Source: Acidobacteriota bacterium
Lineage (GTDB): Bacteria; Acidobacteriota; Vicinamibacteria; Vicinamibacterales; CAVVIG01
DNA: 37,286 nt
Direction: 5' to 3'
NCBI GenBank assembly: GCA_028876655.1
Contig: JAGWRA010000275.1
Location: 1 to 37,286 of the forward strand
Shown here: one piece after another, positions 239 through 37,286 of the stretch
How positions within the stretch are numbered: the stretch's first letter is position 1
Layout: every line of letters begins with the position of its first letter
Program-made: the position numbers and the translations under genes
The notes under the pieces: model-generated
What the model saw: the letters and a program-made list of their open reading frames with translations, nothing else
Databases searched by the model: none
Told to the model about the DNA's origin: nothing

Positions 239-3043
239 ATGGCCAAGACAACTCGGCGCACTGGCGGGACGAGACGGACGGCGGGCCGGACGGCCGCGAA
301 GAAGCCGGCGAAGAAGGCGGCCGGCAAGGGGCGCAGCCCGAAGTACGTCTACTTCTTTGGCGACGGCAAGGCCGACGGCAACCGGGACATGAAGGACCTG
401 CTCGGCGGCAAGGGCTCCGGGCTGGCCGAGATGACCAACGCGGGGCTGCCGGTCCCGCCGGGCTTCACCATTTCCACTGACGTCTGCCGCATTTATATCG
501 ACCAGAAGGGGAAGATTCCGGCCGCCATCGATCAGGAGATCGCCATCTACCTGCGCCGGCTGGAGAAGGCGGCCGGCGCCACGCTGGGCTCGACCGAGAA
601 TCCGCTGCTGGTGTCGGTCCGCTCGGGTGCGAAGTTCTCGATGCCGGGGATGATGGACACGATCCTGAACCTCGGCCTGAACGACGCGGCGGTCGAGGGG
701 CTGAAGCGCCGGACCTCGAACGGGCGGTTCGCCTACGACTCCTACCGGCGATTCATCCAGATGTTCGGCAACGTCGTCCTGGAGATCCCGAAGGAGGCGT
801 TCGAGCACGAGCTGGACGGGGTGAAGAAGGCGCGGGGGGTGACGCTCGACCCGAACCTCGACGAGGACGCGCTGCGCGAGGTGGTCCAGCGCTACAAGGC
901 CGTCGTCCAGAAGCGGACCGGCAAGGCGTTCCCGCAGGATCCGAACGTCCAGCTGAAGATGGCGCGCGACGCGGTGTTCCGCTCGTGGAACAACCCGCGG
1001 GCGATCGAGTACCGGCGCATCTACGACATCCCCGACTCGATCGGCACGGCCGTGAACGTGCAGATGATGGTGTTCGGCAACACGGGCGACCGGTCGGCGA
1101 CCGGCGTCGGCTTCACGCGGAACCCGGCGAACGGCAAGAAGGAGTTCTACGGCGAGTTCCTGGTCAACGCGCAGGGCGAGGACGTGGTGGCCGGGATCCG
1201 GACGCCGCAGCCGATCACCGAGCTCGAGCAGGTGATGCCGAAGGCGTACCGCCAGCTGCGCGAGATCACGACGCGGCTCGAGCGGCACTACAAGGACGTC
1301 CAGGACTTCGAGTTCACCATCCAGGACGAACGGCTGTTCATGCTGCAGACCCGCAACGGGAAGCGGACCGGCTACGCCGCCGTCGTCATCGCCACCGATC
1401 TGGTCGACGAGAAGCTGATCAAGCCGGTCGACGCCGTGAAGCTGGTCGACCCCGAGTCGCTGTCGCAGCTGCTGGCGCCGGCCTTCGACCGCGAGGAGTG
1501 GGCGAAGATCCCGGTGGCGACGCGCGGCCTGCCGGCCTCGCCGGGGGCGGCGAGCGGCCAGGTGGTCTTCAGCGCGGACCACGCCGTCGAGTGGAGCGAG
1601 AAGGGGAAGCCGGTGATCCTGGTGCGCCAGGAAACGGTGCCCGACGACATCCACGGGATGTTCGTCTCGCAGGGGATCCTGACGGCCACCGGCGGCATGA
1701 CCTCGCACGCGGCCGTCGTCGGCCGGCAGATGGGGAAGCCGTCGGTCGTCGGCGCGGGCGAACTGCAGATCAGCGAGGCGTCCCGCGAGTTCCGGGTGAA
1801 CGGCCAGACGGTGAAGGAAGGGGATTTCCTCTCCTTCGACGGTCTCACCGGCGAGGTCAAGATCGCGAGGGTGGCGACGCAGCCGAGCGAGATCCTGCAG
1901 GTGGTGCAGGGGACGCTGCCGGCCCGGGAGTCGGCGATCTACGGCCGCTTCGCGCGGCTGCTCGACTGGGCCGACAAGGTCCGGCGGCTGGGCGTCCGGG
2001 CGAACGCCGACCAGCCGGATCAGGCCGAGCTCGCCTACGCGTTCGGCGCGCGCGGCATCGGGCTGTGTCGCACCGAGCACATGTTCTTCGGCGAGGGCCG
2101 GATCCCGATCGTGCAGCGGATGATCCTGGCCGAGACCGAGGCCGATCGCCGCAAGGCGCTCGACGGGCTGCTGCCGCTGCAGCGCGGCGACTTCTACGGT
2201 GTGTTCAAGGGGATGCACGGGACGCCGGTCACCATCCGGACCATCGATCCGCCGCTCCACGAGTTCCTCCCCAAGCGCGAGGAGCTGATGGTCGAGATCG
2301 CCCGGATGGAGGCGAAGGGGCAGCAGGGGAAGGAGCTGGCGCAGAAGCAGGCGCTGCTCGCCCGCGTCGAGCAGCTGCACGAGTTCAACCCGATGCTCGG
2401 GCATCGCGGCGTCCGGCTGGGGATCACCTACCCGGAGATCACCGAGATGCAGACCCGCGCGATTCTCGAGGCCGCGTGCCAGCTGAAGCGCGAGGGGCTC
2501 GAGGTCGTGCCGGAGATCATGATTCCGCTCGTCGGCGACGTGAAGGAGCTGAAGGATCAGAAGACGGTGGTCGACCGGGTGGCCCAGGAGACCTTCAAGC
2601 GCGAAGGCGTCAAGGTGAAGTACCTGGTCGGGACGATGATCGAGGTGCCGCGCGGGGTCGTCACGGCCGACGAGGTGGCGACCGAGGCGGCGTTCTTCTC
2701 GTTCGGGACCAACGATCTCACGCAGCTCACCTTCGGCTTCTCGCGCGACGACGTCGGGAAGTTCCTGCGGGTCTACCAGACACGGAAGATCCTGGAGAAG
2801 GACCCGTTCCAGTCGATCGACACGGTGGGCGTCGGTGCGCTCGTCCGGATGGGCGTCGAGAAGGGGCGGGGGGCGCGGCCCAGCCTCAAGGTCGGCGTCT
2901 GCGGCGAGCACGGCGGCGACCCGGCCTCGATCCACTTCTTCGAGAGCGTCGGGCTCGACTACGTGAGCGCGTCGCCGTACCGCATCCCCGTGGCGCGGCT
3001 CGCCGCCGCCCAGGCGGCGCTCGCCGCACGCCACGGCGACTGA
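239..3043 (+). CDS. ppdK: Pyruvate, phosphate dikinase with basic N-terminal tail
   Basis: The enzyme interconverts ATP, phosphate and pyruvate with AMP, pyrophosphate and phosphoenolpyruvate in the cytoplasm. After a tail of about 34 residues the family N-terminus appears (YVYFFGDGKADG), followed by the nucleotide-binding domain (SVRSGAKFSMPGMMDT). The phosphohistidine domain has catalytic His490 in GGMTSHAAVVGRQMGKPSVVG-like context. The C-terminal PEP/pyruvate barrel has GTNDLTQ and catalytic Cys888 in VGVCGEHGGDP. At 934 aa it is slightly longer than the usual 870-900, and the excess is the Lys/Arg/Ala-rich tail. No alternative ATG, GTG or TTG lies between codon 1 and the conserved start, so the tail is encoded unless sequence error intervenes. 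It sits 3 nt after glyS and ends before a strong hairpin. Confidence 0.97.
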   Translation: MAKTTRRTGGTRRTAGRTAAKKPAKKAAGKGRSPKYVYFFGDGKADGNRDMKDLLGGKGSGLAEMTNAGLPVPPGFTISTDVCRIYIDQKGKIPAAIDQEIAIYLRRLEKAAGATLGSTENPLLVSVRSGAKFSMPGMMDTILNLGLNDAAVEGLKRRTSNGRFAYDSYRRFIQMFGNVVLEIPKEAFEHELDGVKKARGVTLDPNLDEDALREVVQRYKAVVQKRTGKAFPQDPNVQLKMARDAVFRSWNNPRAIEYRRIYDIPDSIGTAVNVQMMVFGNTGDRSATGVGFTRNPANGKKEFYGEFLVNAQGEDVVAGIRTPQPITELEQVMPKAYRQLREITTRLERHYKDVQDFEFTIQDERLFMLQTRNGKRTGYAAVVIATDLVDEKLIKPVDAVKLVDPESLSQLLAPAFDREEWAKIPVATRGLPASPGAASGQVVFSADHAVEWSEKGKPVILVRQETVPDDIHGMFVSQGILTATGGMTSHAAVVGRQMGKPSVVGAGELQISEASREFRVNGQTVKEGDFLSFDGLTGEVKIARVATQPSEILQVVQGTLPARESAIYGRFARLLDWADKVRRLGVRANADQPDQAELAYAFGARGIGLCRTEHMFFGEGRIPIVQRMILAETEADRRKALDGLLPLQRGDFYGVFKGMHGTPVTIRTIDPPLHEFLPKREELMVEIARMEAKGQQGKELAQKQALLARVEQLHEFNPMLGHRGVRLGITYPEITEMQTRAILEAACQLKREGLEVVPEIMIPLVGDVKELKDQKTVVDRVAQETFKREGVKVKYLVGTMIEVPRGVVTADEVATEAAFFSFGTNDLTQLTFGFSRDDVGKFLRVYQTRKILEKDPFQSIDTVGVGALVRMGVEKGRGARPSLKVGVCGEHGGDPASIHFFESVGLDYVSASPYRIPVARLAAAQAALAARHGD

Positions 3044-3049
3044 CGGTTC

Positions 3050-3091
3050 GACGGCCGGCGGCCGGGACGGGCGTCCCGGCCGCCGGCCGTC
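3050..3091 (+). terminator. Strong GC hairpin downstream of ppdK
   Basis: A perfect inverted repeat of 19 bp per arm surrounds a GGGC loop (arms 3050-3068 and 3073-3091). It is followed by TTCCCC rather than a uridine run. Its position between the ppdK stop and the corA ribosome-binding site suggests transcription termination or 3'-end protection. The missing U-tract leaves the mechanism open. Confidence 0.7.
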
Positions 3092-3116
3092 TTCCCCTCG
3101 CGACAGGACAGGAGCC

Positions 3117-4082
3117 GTGGTCACAGTCTTCGTGCATCGTGACGGCCGGACCGAACAGGTGCCGAGCGTCGACCGGGCCTGGCTGACGCCGGAGGGGCAG
3201 GCGCTGCTCTGGGTGGATCTGGCGGCGCCGTCGCCGATCGAGGTGGTCGTCCTCCGCGACACCTTCGGATTCCATCCGCTGGCGGTCGAGGACGCGCTCA
3301 GCAAGGTCGAGTACCCCAAGATCGAGAGCTACGACGACTACCTCTACCTGATCCTCCACGGCATCGACTTCCGGGCCGCCGAGCACGGCTTCGGCACGCA
3401 CGACGTCGATTTCTTCCTCGGGCCGAACTACCTCGTCACCGTGCACGACGGCACGTCGCGGTCGGTGGGGGAGCTGCGCGATCACTGCCCCCGGAACCAC
3501 AAGATCCTGGGCGAGGGGCCGGCCGCGCTGATGCATCGCATCGTCGACGCGATGGTCGACCACTACATGCCGGAGGTCGAGAAGCTCGAGGACCGCCTCG
3601 ACGAGCTCGAGAAGGCCGTGCTCGCCTCGCCGCGGCCCGACCTGATCGCGGACATCCTGGAACAGAAGCGGGACGTCAGCTCGCTGCGGCGCGTCATCAC
3701 GCCGCAGCGCGATGCCGTCGGCCGCCTGGCGCGCCGTGAGTTCGCCCTGATCGACACCGAGATGGCGTACCGCTTCCGAGACGTCGGCGACCACCTCGTC
3801 CGTCTCGCCGACGAGGCGACGATGTTCCAGGACCGCATCACGGGGATCCTCGATGCGCACCTGTCGAACGTGTCGAATCGCCTCAACGAGGTCATGAAGG
3901 TGCTGACGGTGATCGCCACGATCTTCATGCCGCTCACCGTGCTTACGGGCCTCTACGGCATGAACGTGACGATGCCGCACTTTCCCGGAGGCGAGGGCGT
4001 GCAGTTCTGGTGGCTGGTGGGGATCATGCTGGGGATGAGCGGCGCGATGCTCGCCTGGTTCCACCGGAAGGGGTGGATCTGA
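3117..4082 (+). CDS. corA: CorA-family divalent cation (Mg2+/Co2+) transporter
   Basis: This is a 321-residue inner-membrane channel of the CorA family, which forms pentamers that admit Mg2+ and often Co2+ or Ni2+. A large soluble N-terminal domain rich in acidic helices is followed by two C-terminal membrane segments. The signature YGMN (GMN at residues 281-283) closes the first segment, and WWLVGIMLGMSGAMLAWF is the second. The protein ends HRKGWI, a basic cytoplasmic tail. It starts at GTG 3117, preceded by AGGACAGGAG. One base separates its TGA from the mutL GTG, so the two are probably co-transcribed although functionally unrelated. Length and topology are normal for the family. The ion specificity cannot be read from sequence. 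Confidence 0.93.
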   Translation: MVTVFVHRDGRTEQVPSVDRAWLTPEGQALLWVDLAAPSPIEVVVLRDTFGFHPLAVEDALSKVEYPKIESYDDYLYLILHGIDFRAAEHGFGTHDVDFFLGPNYLVTVHDGTSRSVGELRDHCPRNHKILGEGPAALMHRIVDAMVDHYMPEVEKLEDRLDELEKAVLASPRPDLIADILEQKRDVSSLRRVITPQRDAVGRLARREFALIDTEMAYRFRDVGDHLVRLADEATMFQDRITGILDAHLSNVSNRLNEVMKVLTVIATIFMPLTVLTGLYGMNVTMPHFPGGEGVQFWWLVGIMLGMSGAMLAWFHRKGWI

Positions 4083-4083
4083 C

Positions 4084-5892
4084 GTGGGGAAGATCACCCG
4101 CCTGCCGTCGGACCTCGCGAACCAGATCGCCGCCGGCGAGGTCGTCGAGCGTCCGGCCTCGGTCGTCAAGGAGCTCATCGAGAACGCGCTGGATGCCGGC
4201 GCGACGCGGATCGCCGTCACCGTGGAACTCGGCGGCAAGAAGCTGATGCGCGTCGAGGACAACGGCGAGGGGATGCCGCCCGAGGACGCGCGGCTGGCGC
4301 TCGAGCGGCACGCGACCAGCAAGATCCGGCGGGCGGACGACCTCGCGGCGATCGCCACGCTGGGGTTCAGGGGCGAGGCGCTGCCGAGCATCGCGTCGGT
4401 GTCGCACCTCGTGCTGCGGACGCGCGCCCGGGGCGCGACCAGCGGGACCGAAATCAAGGTGAACGGCGGGGTGATCGCCTCGGAAGTCGAGACCGGCATG
4501 GCGGAAGGGACGGTCATCGAGGTGGCCGACCTGTTCTACAACCTGCCCGCCCGCCGGAAGTTCCTGAAGTCGGACGGTGCCGAGTCGGCGCAGATTTCGC
4601 GGCTCGTCACGCAGATGGCGCTCGCCTACCCGGAGGTCGGCTTCACGCTGACGAGCAGCGGCCGGCGGGTCCTGGCCTGTCCGCCCGTCACCGGGTTCCG
4701 CGACCGGCTCTACCAGATCTACGGGGACCGGCCGGATCTGGTGGAGGTGCGGCGCGACGGCGGCGGGCTCGCCATCAGCGGGTTCGTCGCGGCGCTGGCC
4801 GAACAGGGGCCGGTGCGCGGCCCGCAGAACGTCTTCGTGAACCGCCGGATCGTGAAGGACCGGACGATCGCCCATGCGATCATCGACGCCTACAGCTCGG
4901 CGTCGATCAAGGAACGCAGCCCCGAGGTCCACCTGTTCATCGACATGCCCCTCGACCGCGTGGACGTGAACGTCCACCCGACGAAGGCGGAGGTCCGCTT
5001 CCGCGAGCAGTCGCTGGTGCACGAGGTCGTGCGGCGCGCGGTCGGCGACGCCATCGGCAGCGGGCCTGCGCCGGAGCTGACGCTGCAGGCGCCACAGGCG
5101 TCGCCCGCCGGCCCCGTGGCCGTGCCGATTCCCGACCTCAATCTCGGCGGCGCGTATCAGAGCCGCTGGGCGCCGGCGACCGCGGCGTTCGCCCGTCGCC
5201 CGGAGGCGGTCCCGGCCGGCCCGCCCCTCGCGGCGCCGGTGTCGTCCGGCGCGGCGCCAACGGCCGCCGGACCGCCGGCGGCTGCGGCAACCGAGGGGAG
5301 CGGGGACTCAGCGGTCCGCCGGATGGTGCCGCTCGGGCAGTTCCGCGACACGTTCATCATCGCGGTGGACGAGGAAGGGGTCGCGATCGTCGACCAGCAC
5401 GTCGCCCACGAACGGATCCTCTTCGAGCGCTTCATGGAGCGGCTCACGGCGGGGACGGCCGAGAGCCAGCGGCTGCTCGAGCCGATCGTCCTCGACCTGC
5501 CGGCCGGCGGCCGTGAAGCGCTGCTGGCCAATACGGAGGCGCTGCACCGGTTCGGATTCGACGTGGAGGACTTCGGCGGCGCCAGCCTCCGGGTCACGGC
5601 CGTGCCGGCCGCGCTGGGCGGAGGCGACGCCGTGGAGGCCGTCCGCGTCCTCGCGCAGGACCTGGAAGGGCTGGACCGGGGCTCGCGGGTGGAAGAGGCG
5701 CTGCGGCGGATTGCCGCGACCATGGCCTGCCATGCGGCCGTGAAGGCGAACGATCCGCTGACCTACGAGAAGATGACCCACCTGCTCGACGAGTTGCGCC
5801 GCACGGCGTACTCGACCGTCTGTCCGCACGGTCGCCCGGTGATGCTGCGGCTGACCCGGCGCGAGATCGAGCGGAACTTCCAGAGAATCTGA
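4084..5892 (+). CDS. mutL: DNA mismatch repair protein MutL (endonuclease type)
   Basis: This 602-residue protein couples mismatch recognition by MutS to strand removal. The N-terminal GHKL ATPase shows ELIENALDAGA (Glu30, Asn34), DNGEGM, TSKI and GFRGEALPSI, then NLPARRKF. A Pro/Ala-rich linker covers about residues 320-410. The C-terminal dimerisation domain carries the metal-site motifs of MutL proteins that nick DNA themselves: DQHVAHERILFE from residue 437, ACHAAVKAND and CPHGRP. The canonical motif is DQHA(x)2E(x)4E, so Ala is replaced by Val here while Asp, His and both Glu remain, and ACR is ACH. It starts at GTG 4084, 1 nt after corA. No mutS or mutH is in the window. It ends at a palindromic repeat shared with convergent rarA. 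Confidence 0.96.
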   Translation: MGKITRLPSDLANQIAAGEVVERPASVVKELIENALDAGATRIAVTVELGGKKLMRVEDNGEGMPPEDARLALERHATSKIRRADDLAAIATLGFRGEALPSIASVSHLVLRTRARGATSGTEIKVNGGVIASEVETGMAEGTVIEVADLFYNLPARRKFLKSDGAESAQISRLVTQMALAYPEVGFTLTSSGRRVLACPPVTGFRDRLYQIYGDRPDLVEVRRDGGGLAISGFVAALAEQGPVRGPQNVFVNRRIVKDRTIAHAIIDAYSSASIKERSPEVHLFIDMPLDRVDVNVHPTKAEVRFREQSLVHEVVRRAVGDAIGSGPAPELTLQAPQASPAGPVAVPIPDLNLGGAYQSRWAPATAAFARRPEAVPAGPPLAAPVSSGAAPTAAGPPAAAATEGSGDSAVRRMVPLGQFRDTFIIAVDEEGVAIVDQHVAHERILFERFMERLTAGTAESQRLLEPIVLDLPAGGREALLANTEALHRFGFDVEDFGGASLRVTAVPAALGGGDAVEAVRVLAQDLEGLDRGSRVEEALRRIAATMACHAAVKANDPLTYEKMTHLLDELRRTAYSTVCPHGRPVMLRLTRREIERNFQRI

Positions 5893-5962: not shown

Positions 5963-7330
5963 TCACTCCTCGCGCTTCTTCCGCTTGAACGCCTCCCACG
6001 CGTCCAGGCGCCGCTTGATCTCTTTTTCGAAGCCGCGCTCGGTCGGACGATAGTAGTGCCGTCCGCGCAGCGCGGGCGGCAGACAGTCCATCGCAGCCAC
6101 GCCGTCGGCCTCGGCGTGGGCGTACTTGTAGCCCTTTCCGTAGTCCAGGTCCTTCATCAGCCGTGTCGGCGCGTTGCGGAGGTGCAGGGGGACCGGCTCT
6201 GCGGCGTCGCGATGCGCATCCGCGGCGGCCTGCCCGTACGCCTCGTAGATGGCGTTGCTCTTCGGCGCGGTCGCCAGGTAGATCGCCGCCTGCGCCAGTG
6301 CCGTGTTCCCCTCGGGCATGCCGATGAAGTGGACCGCGTCCTTGGCGGCGACCGCGACCGTGAGCGCCTGCGGATCGGCGTTGCCGATGTCCTCGGAGGC
6401 GAACCGCACGAGGCGCCGGGCGATGTACAGCGGATCCTCGCCCGCCTCGACCATGCGCGCCAGCCAGTAGACGGCGGCATCGGGGTCGCTGTTGCGCATC
6501 GACTTGTGGAGCGCCGAGATGAGGTTGTAGTGCTCTTCGCCGGCCTTGTCGTACAGCAGGGCGCGGCGCTGGACGAGCTGCTGCACGAGGGGAAGATCCA
6601 CGTGCCGGCCCGCGGCTCCCGGGCCGGCCACGCCGCCCGGGACGGCCGAGACCGCCAGTTCCAGCAGGTTGAGCGCCACGCGCGCGTCGCCGTTGGCGTA
6701 CGCCGCCATCGCCGCGATCGCCTCCTCGTCGGCGGTCACCTCGGTGGCGCCGAGGCCGCGCGCGCGGTCGGCAAGGGCGCGCCGGAGGATGTGCGCGGTC
6801 TCGTCGGGGGTCAGCGCGCGCAGGACGAACACCTTCGAGCGCGACAGCAGCGCGGCGTTCACCTCGAACGACGGGTTCTCGGTGGTCGCGCCGATGAGGA
6901 CGATGTCGCCGGCCTCGATGCGGGGGAGGAAGGCGTCCTGCTGGGCCTTGTTGAAGCGGTGGATCTCGTCGATGAAGACGATCGTGCGGCCGCGGCCGGC
7001 GCGGCGCGCCCGCTCGGCCTCCGCCATGACCTCCTTGATTTCCTTGATGCCGGAGAGGACGGCGCTGAACGAGATGAAGCGGGCGCGCGTCAGATCGGCG
7101 ATCATCCGCGCCAACGTCGTCTTCCCCGTGCCCGGCGGGCCCCACAGGATGATCGACTGCAGCAGGTCGCGCTCGATCGCCTCGCGCAGCGGCCGGCCGG
7201 GGGCGAGCAGTTCCTCCTGGCCGACGAACTCGTCGAACGTCCGCGGGCGCATCCGCTCGGCGAGCGGCGCACTCGCGGCCGGGGCGGCGCCGCCCGGCTG
7301 GTCGTCGGGGAAGAGGTCGGCAGTGCTCAT
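5963..7330 (-). CDS. rarA: Replication-associated recombination protein A (MgsA/RarA AAA+ ATPase)
   Basis: This 455-residue clamp-loader-like AAA+ ATPase acts at stalled replication forks (family knowledge). Walker A is GPPGTGKTT at residues 64-72, Walker B is in [14 protein letters not shown], sensor 1 is [11 protein letters not shown], and the C-terminal region has the family's [21 protein letters not shown] and YKYAH segments. A short N-terminal stretch TADLFPDD precedes the conserved LAERMRP and ends in DLF, as many beta-clamp-binding peptides do (inference). It starts at ATG 7330, which overlaps the stop of the upstream methyltransferase as ATGA, so the pair is translationally coupled. 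It converges on mutL, and the C-terminus is Lys/Arg-rich (FKRKKREE). Confidence 0.95.
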
Positions 7331-34841: not shown

Positions 34842-36050
34842 TCAGGCGCGGAAGAACCGCGCCCGCAGGCGTTCGCGCGAGGCCTGAAACGTACGGTCGA
34901 TCTCGTCGATCGAGTCGCCGGTGAACTTCTCCAGGAAGGCGTCGGCGAGCACCAGGCAGACCATCGCTTCGCCGACCACCGCCGCCGCCGGGACGGCGCA
35001 GACGTCGCTGCGCTCGATCGCCGCCGGCGATTCCTGCATGGTGGTCAGATCGACCGAGCGGAGTGGCTTCATCAGCGTCGAGATCGGCTTCATGTAGCCG
35101 GAGACGCGAACGTCCTGGCCGTTGGTCACCCCGCCCTCGAGGCCGCCGGCATTGTTGGTGGGCCGGGCCAGACCGGGGGTCGCCGTGACGGTGCCGTCGC
35201 CGGCCGGGACGATTTCGTCGTGCACGAGCGAGCCCGGCAACTCCGCCACGAGCGGGCCGCGGCCGATGCCGACCGCCTTGATGGCGGGACTGGACATCAA
35301 CGCCTGGGCCAGCCGGCCGTCGAGCTTGCGATCCCACTGCACGTGGCTGCCGAGACCGGCCGGCACGCCCCGGGCGATGACCTCGAAGCTGCCCCCCACG
35401 GTATCGCCCGCGTCGCGCGCCCGGTCGATGAAGGCGATCATCTGTGGCTCGAGCGCCGGATCGGCGCAGTGCAGCGGGGACTCGGCCGGGATCGCCCGCG
35501 CCTGCTCGAAGGTCACCTGGTGGGGCGCGGGCAGGGCCACGTCGCCGATCCGGACGACGTGACTCGCCACGTCGATGCCGAAGCGGTGGAGCAACTGGCG
35601 AGCCACCGCGCCCAGCGCCACCCGGGCTGCCGTCTCACGCGCGCTGGCCCGCTCGAGAACGTCCCGGAGATCCTCGTGACCGTACTTGATCGCGCCGGCG
35701 AGATCCGCATGGCCGGGACGCGGGCGGGTGACCGGTGCGCGCCGGGCGCCCGTCGCCCCCTCCGGCAGCTGCGCCTCGGGGTGCATGGTCTGCTGCCAGT
35801 TCGGCCAGTCGCGGTTCCGGACCTGCAGGGCCAGCGGCGCCCCGGTCGTCCGCCCGTGACGGACCCCGGAGAGGATGACCGCGGTGTCCGACTCGATGGC
35901 CATCCGCCGGCCCCGGCCGTAGCCGCCCTGACGCCGGCGCAGGTCGACCGTGATGGCCTCGAAATCCAGAGCCAGGCCCGCCGGCAGGCCGTCGATCACG
36001 GCGACGAGGGCCTGTCCGTGTGATTCCCCCGCAGTGAGAAAACGCAGCAT
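34842..36050 (-). CDS. aroC: Chorismate synthase
   Basis: AroC makes chorismate from 5-enolpyruvylshikimate 3-phosphate with reduced FMN. The 402-residue protein has LRFLTAGESHGQALVAVIDGLPAG, RRRQGGYGRGRRM, the central HADLAGAIKYG segment, ASARETAARVALGAVA, NNAGGLEGGVTNGQ and SDVCAVPAAAVVGEAMVC, all family signatures. The ORF-track Met at 36053 is a TTG codon directly before ATG 36050, and I prefer the ATG. TATAAAAT lies 9-10 nt upstream, so the transcript may begin at or just before the start. It is the first gene of the long minus-strand run and divergent from the truncated P-loop gene. Confidence 0.97.
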   Translation of the reverse strand: MLRFLTAGESHGQALVAVIDGLPAGLALDFEAITVDLRRRQGGYGRGRRMAIESDTAVILSGVRHGRTTGAPLALQVRNRDWPNWQQTMHPEAQLPEGATGARRAPVTRPRPGHADLAGAIKYGHEDLRDVLERASARETAARVALGAVARQLLHRFGIDVASHVVRIGDVALPAPHQVTFEQARAIPAESPLHCADPALEPQMIAFIDRARDAGDTVGGSFEVIARGVPAGLGSHVQWDRKLDGRLAQALMSSPAIKAVGIGRGPLVAELPGSLVHDEIVPAGDGTVTATPGLARPTNNAGGLEGGVTNGQDVRVSGYMKPISTLMKPLRSVDLTTMQESPAAIERSDVCAVPAAAVVGEAMVCLVLADAFLEKFTGDSIDEIDRTFQASRERLRARFFRA

Positions 36051-36059
36051 CAACTGGGC

Positions 36060-36067
36060 ATTTTATA
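36060..36067 (-). promoter_or_regulatory. -10 region TATAAAAT before aroC
   Basis: The minus strand reads TATAAAAT, containing TATAAA and TAAAAT. It ends 9 nt before the aroC ATG, giving almost no leader. The -35 area is GC-rich without a consensus match. Confidence 0.45.
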
Positions 36068-36243
36068 CGAAGTTTCTGCGGCGTCCGGCCACCGGGGATT
36101 CACCTGCGCGCCGGAAGAGGCCCGTTGGGCGGGCTGATGCCTCCGGCGCTGGTCTTGCACCGCAGCAGGGCCGCCGGTCATGTAGCGGCCGAACGGGACG
36201 CGCGGCGAGGACGAGGATCCGTCGCGGCCCGGCGGAGGGGGAC

Positions 36244-37286
36244 ATGGAGTTGTTCGCAGATCGGTTCCTGCGTGGATCGTCGTCGCAGGCGCTCGACCTG
36301 GCCTCTGGCCGGCGTGTCGTGCTGCGCGAGTTCAGGGCGGCCGAAGCGTTCAGGCTGGCGCAATGGGCGGCCCGTTGTGCCGCCCGCGGGCAGACGAGGC
36401 GCGAGGCTCGTCCGGCGCTCGTGGATTTCGGTACATGCGCCGGCGAGCGGTGCTTCGAGGCCTACGCCGTGTGCGGCGACGTCGAGGCGCGCGGCGGGCC
36501 GCCGGCTCCGTCACCGATCGTGCGCGTGACGATTCAGCCGCGGGAGGCGTTGCGCGAACTGGCCGCTCTGCTCGACGACCCGGGTGGGTCCCTTGGAGGC
36601 GTGCGCATCGTCGCGCTGCGTGGCGGCCGCGGCTCGGGACGGAGCACGCTGCTCGCCCAGCTGGCGCGCGAAGCGCGCCTGCGCGGATACGTGCCGGTGT
36701 CCACGCCGCTGCTCGCGGCCTTCGCCGGATCGGCCATGGTGCCGGCGCTTCCGCCGGGGCTCCGCGACGAAGGGCACAGGCTGCTGGCAGGCCGCCACCT
36801 CCTCGTCCTCGACGACGACTCGGCAGAGACGGCGGCCGAGCGGCTGGCGCGGCTCGTGGTGCAGCTGGGCGCAGCCGGCCCGTCCGCCCATCTGGTCATC
36901 ACGACCGGGCGCGGCCGCGGAGCCTGCTGCACCGTCGACATGGATCCGCTGTCGGTGCCGCAGCTCATGGCCGTGGCGCGCGTGCATCGCCGGTACGGCG
37001 CGCGTGTCGCGTTCGCGACGGCCTCGGCGGCGCGGCTGGCGGAAGGGGCCCCCGGTCTCTTTCTCGATCGCCTGCGGCGGACCCTGCTGGCGCCAGGCCG
37101 GGGCGTCGGGCGACGCAGGAACGCTACGGAGGCAGCCCGCCCTGCCATCGTGCAGGCGGCGGCTGTGGCGGAAGAGGCGGCGGAGTATCGCGTGGTGGCC
37201 CGGCAATCCGGGCCGGTTGGCGGTGAAGGGCCCCCGGGGCCGTCGCCGGCGCGTGCGGCCGCGGCGGCCGGGGCGGCGCTGGCGGC
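36244..37286 (+). CDS. P-loop NTPase-like protein with kinase-lobe-like N-terminus (3' truncated by window)
   Basis: The frame is open from ATG 36244 (GGCGGAGGGGG upstream) to the window end without a stop, at least 347 codons. The ORF track omits it because it has no stop. Residues 1-90 (MELFADRFLRG, LDLASGRRVVLREF, ALVDFGTCAGERCFEAYAVCG) resemble a degenerate protein-kinase N-lobe. A P-loop ATPase-like part follows: IVALRGGRGSGRSTLLAQLA, in which the Walker A lysine is Arg133, then a Walker B-like HLLVLDDD with Asp190 and LVITTGRG. The order is reminiscent of STAND-type signalling ATPases. The remainder is Arg/Ala-rich. The codon use is that of the neighbours. The specific function is unknown, and the other shadow frames here should be ignored. 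Confidence 0.7.
   Translation, partial: MELFADRFLRGSSSQALDLASGRRVVLREFRAAEAFRLAQWAARCAARGQTRREARPALVDFGTCAGERCFEAYAVCGDVEARGGPPAPSPIVRVTIQPREALRELAALLDDPGGSLGGVRIVALRGGRGSGRSTLLAQLAREARLRGYVPVSTPLLAAFAGSAMVPALPPGLRDEGHRLLAGRHLLVLDDDSAETAAERLARLVVQLGAAGPSAHLVITTGRGRGACCTVDMDPLSVPQLMAVARVHRRYGARVAFATASAARLAEGAPGLFLDRLRRTLLAPGRGVGRRRNATEAARPAIVQAAAVAEEAAEYRVVARQSGPVGGEGPPGPSPARAAAAAGAALA

Follow-up and report, generated by a model that had tools for sequence, protein, structure and literature searches.

A probable sigma-54 activator of Acidobacteriota with a pseudokinase remnant and a degenerate STAND-like NTPase as its front modules

The gene that is cut by the 3′ end of the window (the whole stretch of 37,286 nucleotides analyzed here) probably encodes the front part of a sigma-54 activator whose inputs are pseudo-enzymes, namely, a truncated pseudokinase and a STAND-like NTPase with an arginine in place of the Walker A lysine. 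The AAA+ ring of a sigma-54 activator is normally under the control of one input domain. Among orthologues at one syntenic site, the upstream STAND NTPase is lost by degrees, with loops ranging from GSGKT via GSGR to complete absence, and the pseudokinase is degraded too. This gradation allows one to ask which parts of a multi-domain switch need catalysis and which need only their fold.

The reading frame at the contig end and its probable continuation

An uninterrupted open reading frame runs from an ATG at position 36244 to the end of the window (36244..37284, + strand), encodes 347 amino acids and is preceded directly by an RBS-like GGAGGGGG. As the window is a complete contig (G000:C246) of a draft genome of 4.19 Mb in 281 contigs, the missing 3′ part of the frame, which the first-pass annotation had placed outside the window, reflects an assembly break within the gene and not the choice of window. 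A protein-level search detected a same-genus relative with 41% identity (E value of 3e-33), and the occurrence of relatives both in this genus and throughout the order argues that the frame is not spurious. An early stop, which had been named as a sign of a spurious frame, was not seen in the relatives soon after the corresponding point. All three motifs quoted in the annotation (VVLREF, GGRGSGRST and LLVLDDD) are present in the translation.

Relatives were detected in 27 of 60 near genomes by a single-sequence protein search and in 69 of the 162 genomes of the order by a profile search, with nearly all of the family included. In a wider sample of the phylum, all of the matches listed fall in the same order. 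A scan of a wider contig database with the single protein gave no match, and a profile from a tighter alignment recovered 12 named Acidobacteria records; the database records that could be named were Acidobacteria MAGs, several of them labelled gp6. Full-length relatives have about 1,000 to 1,250 amino acids and carry a sigma-54 AAA+ domain and a Fis HTH at the C terminus.

When the C-terminal half of a relative was searched against the genome that contains the window, the best match (57% identity, E value of 4e-146) began at base 11 of contig C162. A frame open from the edge of this contig (L069, 2-1552) contains GESGAGKE, GAFTGA and a Fis-type HTH; the Sigma54_activat AAA+ domain was recovered over its cut-off (E value of 6e-68) and the Fis-type HTH as HTH_8 (E value of 2.5e-6). 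RpoN is encoded in the same genome (PF04552, E value of 4e-65). The two contigs do not overlap, and about 250 amino acids between them, where relatives have TPR repeats, are absent from the assembly. From synteny and homology, we infer that a single gene is split between C246 and C162, the likely C-terminal half beyond position 37286 having been located in this way. The open frame, the length of the relatives and this likely continuation all point to the window frame encoding the N-terminal portion of a bEBP (sigma-54 activator), and the best reading of the full protein is an activator of ∼1,100 residues. In the explanation that we consider probable as a whole, its domains would follow in the order pseudokinase remnant, STAND-like NTPase, TPR superhelix, GAF-like domain, sigma-54 AAA+ domain and Fis-type HTH.

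PDB matches for the region between the NTPase and the GAF were to TPR and related helical repeats, weakly including MalT, while the equivalent stretch of the window gene falls in the assembly gap. GAF_2 was detected in 5 of 23 members in the region after the TPR (best E value of 2e-4), with GAF scores near or below the curated cut-offs. Every relative with a contig long enough to include the sigma-54 domain has an intact Walker A motif there, and GAFTGA is likewise intact in such relatives, the cases to note being L113, which has a frame break ahead of this domain, and L125, in which the motif was looked for and none was seen. Frames on contigs C132 and C120 were considered as an intact paralogue and dropped, the former having a TPR-GAF-sigma54 arrangement and the latter being a response regulator. 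The C132 frame (L072, 1579-4914) appears from its sequence to be a second sigma-54 activator with TPR-like and GAF-like parts and no kinase/NTPase module.

The kinase-like and P-loop modules

The first-pass annotation had proposed a decayed kinase N-lobe at the start of the protein, and this was borne out by the family AF2 model, Foldseek and comparison with a profile of kinases from the same genome. The remnant covers residues 1 to 75 (36244..36468, + strand) and comprises beta1 to beta3, alphaC, beta4 and beta5, with no C-lobe. For the N terminus of the family, AF2 predicted an opening module that resembles a kinase N-lobe, followed by a P-loop NTPase (pLDDT of 88); for the window protein, it predicted a confident N-lobe-like module at residues 1 to 75 and a P-loop NTPase at ∼93 to 282 (mean pLDDT of 80). 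Foldseek with the family model returned protein kinases (MELK, CaMKII, ULK1 and WEE1) and NB-ARC/NLR proteins, with a probability of 1.0, and the best 50 matches to the window's own model were all P-loop folds, with zero kinases. An hhalign comparison with active kinases of the same genome scored 31.4, relative to a maximum of 18.8 in 40 column shuffles, and paired strands beta2 to beta5, setting DLATGxRVxL opposite the strand that ends in VALK. The assignment comes from these three approaches, and Pfam gave no match: Pkinase was not among the 25 most frequent Pfam families for 24 members (maximum E value of 10), among the nine families of the first member or in the table for the window protein.

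Residues associated with kinase catalysis are lost. The VAIK-type beta-3 lysine is an arginine in the window protein (VVLR) and is retained only in L050. The catalytic loop and DFG region have been deleted from the window protein, unlike in the relatives, which have a helix and a beta hairpin after the N-lobe where these elements of a kinase sit. An HRD-type catalytic loop was absent from every row of the alignment; vestiges, such as AGDLSRESL in L058, could be discerned by eye at the position of HRDLKPENI. By computation, the kinase-like start is real and represents a truncated pseudokinase.

A degenerate STAND/NB-ARC-type P-loop NTPase occupies residues ∼93 to 282 (36520..37089, + strand). 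AAA_16 matched the window protein with an E value of 2.3e-4 and nSTAND_NTPase5 with one of 5.6e-4, both below the curated cut-offs (22.2 versus 32.6 bits and 20.2 versus 34, respectively); the AAA_16 score of one relative, L042, is 33.6. The leading Foldseek matches of the window model were NRC2, NRC1 and NB-ARC, with a probability of 1.0. Domain search, AF2 and Foldseek therefore upheld the proposal of an Arg-variant P-loop, and the absence of a P-loop fold from structure prediction, which would have spoken against it, was not observed. The Walker A variant GGRGSGRST (36622..36648, + strand) departs from GxxxxGK[ST] at the lysine, the same-genus relative L033 having GPPASGKST, while the Walker B-like LLVLDDD (36802..36822, + strand) follows hhhhD[D/E] and aligns with LFIIDD of the relatives. 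A single sequencing error is ruled out as the source of the arginine, as CGG differs from both lysine codons at two or more bases.

When the relatives were compared at the position of GK or GR, as the annotation had suggested, the Walker A lysine was found in 13 of 59, all of them in the window's own family (f1), and 4 of these 13 have lost the next Ser/Thr. An arginine within an otherwise glycine-rich loop is present in the window protein, L037, L046, L048 and L127. Outside f1, the families of the order have Leu, Ile or Ala at this position or have lost the loop (for example, TPEGPAR, ESDSPAG and EPSAAN), and Walker B likewise decays among the relatives. At least four Walker A changes were counted on a tree of the C-terminal half, the within-genus contrast between the window and L033 adding one more; this tree was built in quick mode, leaves the deep branches open and cannot separate gain from loss, and the changes are read as losses because the P-loop fold is present. 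Five f2 genomes (L116, L117, L120, L133 and L137) have an aroC-linked activator with a strongly shortened pseudokinase and no P-loop, which nevertheless keeps GESGxGKE and GAFTGA. The f2 activators, in which both front modules are strongly shortened, are an end point of front-module decay, and degeneracy of the front modules is the rule in the family, not a peculiarity of the window gene.

Elsewhere in the window, the region 6890-7162 (- strand), inside a 729-amino-acid frame, gave a weak match (E value of 1.1e-4) to the profile of the activator family, in its NTPase part; to judge from this match, its product is possibly another P-loop protein.

The upstream promoter element and neighboring genes

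Sigma-54 promoters have a −24/−12 register with the consensus TGGCACG-N4-TTGCW. A sigma-54-type −24/−12 element of the activator gene, GGCGCTGGTCTTGCAC, is located at 36145..36160 (+ strand) and was identified by cross-locus conservation. Of the 55 loci, 53 had a TTGCA at a distance of 14 to 89 nucleotides 5′ of the start codon, and in 44 of these 53 the TTGCA was preceded by a GG at an offset of exactly ten bases; most other offsets gave counts of 0 to 5, and the offset adjacent to the GG register gave 21, owing to GGG runs. TCTTGCA occurred in 37 of the 55 upstream regions, compared with 0.3 expected from shuffles. The conserved form, directly 5′ of the activator gene, is GGC-N5-TCTTGCA. For GGCNNNNNTCTTGCAC, the sole perfect match in the genome is the window copy; with its trailing C included, the exact pattern occurs only once there. 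The canonical consensus was found no more often than by chance in the window and C162, the conserved variant having emerged only by cross-locus comparison. A regulon search with this variant gave two to four matches per genome, a yield below that of the reversed control, and hence no wider regulon is claimed. As the −24/−12 element stands in front of the gene at nearly every locus, activation of the activator gene is probably autogenous.

The syntenic anchor of the family is the divergent neighbor aroC, encoding chorismate synthase (34842..36053, - strand; Pfam Chorismate_synt, E value of 1e-115), which is divergent from the activator gene at nearly every locus that extends far enough to include it. 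On the aroC strand, a TATAAA-like box lies just before the aroC start, at about 36062-36067. On C162, dppB, dppC, an ECF sigma factor gene and a gene for a zf-HC2 anti-sigma-like protein are located 3′ of the activator (1661-5108), an arrangement conserved in many loci; dppB adjoins the activator in 18 of the 43 loci with room for it. A DHquinase-shikimate dehydrogenase fusion of the aroDE type, cut by the contig end, lies ∼8 kb downstream of the activator on the same contig (L069, 9621-10946), and shikimate genes are thus present on both sides of the locus, aroC on one and the aroDE-type fusion on the other.

Mode of action, alternatives and known systems

Since catalytic residues are missing from the kinase remnant and the STAND Walker A lysine has been lost here and in most relatives, both front modules are probably non-catalytic. 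They may work without ATP hydrolysis, as an input or assembly platform for protein docking, ligand sensing or oligomerization, with the caveat that Arg or another substitution in Walker A may leave nucleotide binding intact. Together with the TPR and GAF, this platform would control the C-terminal AAA+ ring, which would be the only ATPase needed and would remodel the closed complex of RNA polymerase and sigma-54. The activator would thereby turn on its own promoter and, putatively, the co-directional dppB, dppC, ECF sigma and anti-sigma genes. The first-pass annotation had suggested a signalling ATPase or a degenerate regulator; degeneracy holds for the front modules, but the intact output half of a sigma-54 enhancer-binding activator had been missed. 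On a broader evolutionary reading we are evenly divided: that in this family, at an unchanging position in the genome, the kinase and the STAND NTPase turned step by step, and repeatedly, into pseudo-enzymes, with no change in the sigma-54 engine or in the sigma-54 promoter of the gene, so that sensing by dead enzymes is combined with autogenous sigma-54 feedback.

An alternative that we consider unlikely is that the STAND NTPase still binds ATP/ADP as an on/off switch despite its arginine, with MalT-like, nucleotide-dependent oligomerization gating the sigma-54 ring. The intact fold, the GSG loop and Walker B-like motif kept by the window protein, the lysine of the 13 f1 relatives (including same-genus L033) and the weak MalT match of the TPR region are all compatible with such a switch, but the gene persists in other families of the order in which the whole loop has gone, and Walker B decays as well; a nucleotide switch cannot, therefore, be essential across the family. 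It is very improbable that the gene in the window is decaying as a pseudogene or is an artefact of assembly at the contig end. Although the contig breaks within the gene and part of the kinase C-lobe is deleted relative to the relatives, the frame is long and open, the promoter element and start are conserved, the identity to the same-genus protein is 41% and the C-terminal half on C162 is intact, while the change from Lys to Arg takes at least two base changes. A sigma-54 activator with pseudo-enzyme inputs remains the preferred reading.

In open-licence papers, nothing specific was found on the activator family or on kinase/STAND/sigma-54 fusions. The family shares with sigma-54 enhancer-binding proteins of the NorR, NifA, NtrC and FhlA class an AAA+ domain with GESGxGKE and GAFTGA, the AAA lid and a Fis-type HTH and, with NifA and NorR, a GAF-like domain ahead of the AAA+ domain. 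Among the NCBIfam models, that of NorR fits the relatives best, with all NCBIfam equivalog scores far under the cut-off. The family differs from this class by an extra input part of ∼700 residues (pseudokinase, STAND-like NTPase and TPR). With STAND regulators that have TPRs (MalT and NB-ARC/NLR proteins, such as Apaf-1 and NRC), it shares an NB-ARC-like P-loop fold followed by a TPR superhelix, but its Walker A lysine is mostly absent and a second AAA+ ATPase, which is intact, provides its output. Inactive STAND (iSTAND) proteins are conserved components of MoxR-vWA ternary systems (PMC7159879) and provide a precedent for catalytically inactive STAND NTPases; these, however, are conflict systems with other partners and no sigma-54 activator. 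Bacterial Ser/Thr kinases fused to a MalT-like part or to TPR and GGDEF have been described in a text that does not mention a sigma-54 output for kinase fusions (PMC1262709). Such kinase-STAND/TPR/output fusions have the same order of kinase, NTPase, TPR and output as the activator family, in which the kinase is instead truncated after the DFG strand or further and has no catalytic residues.
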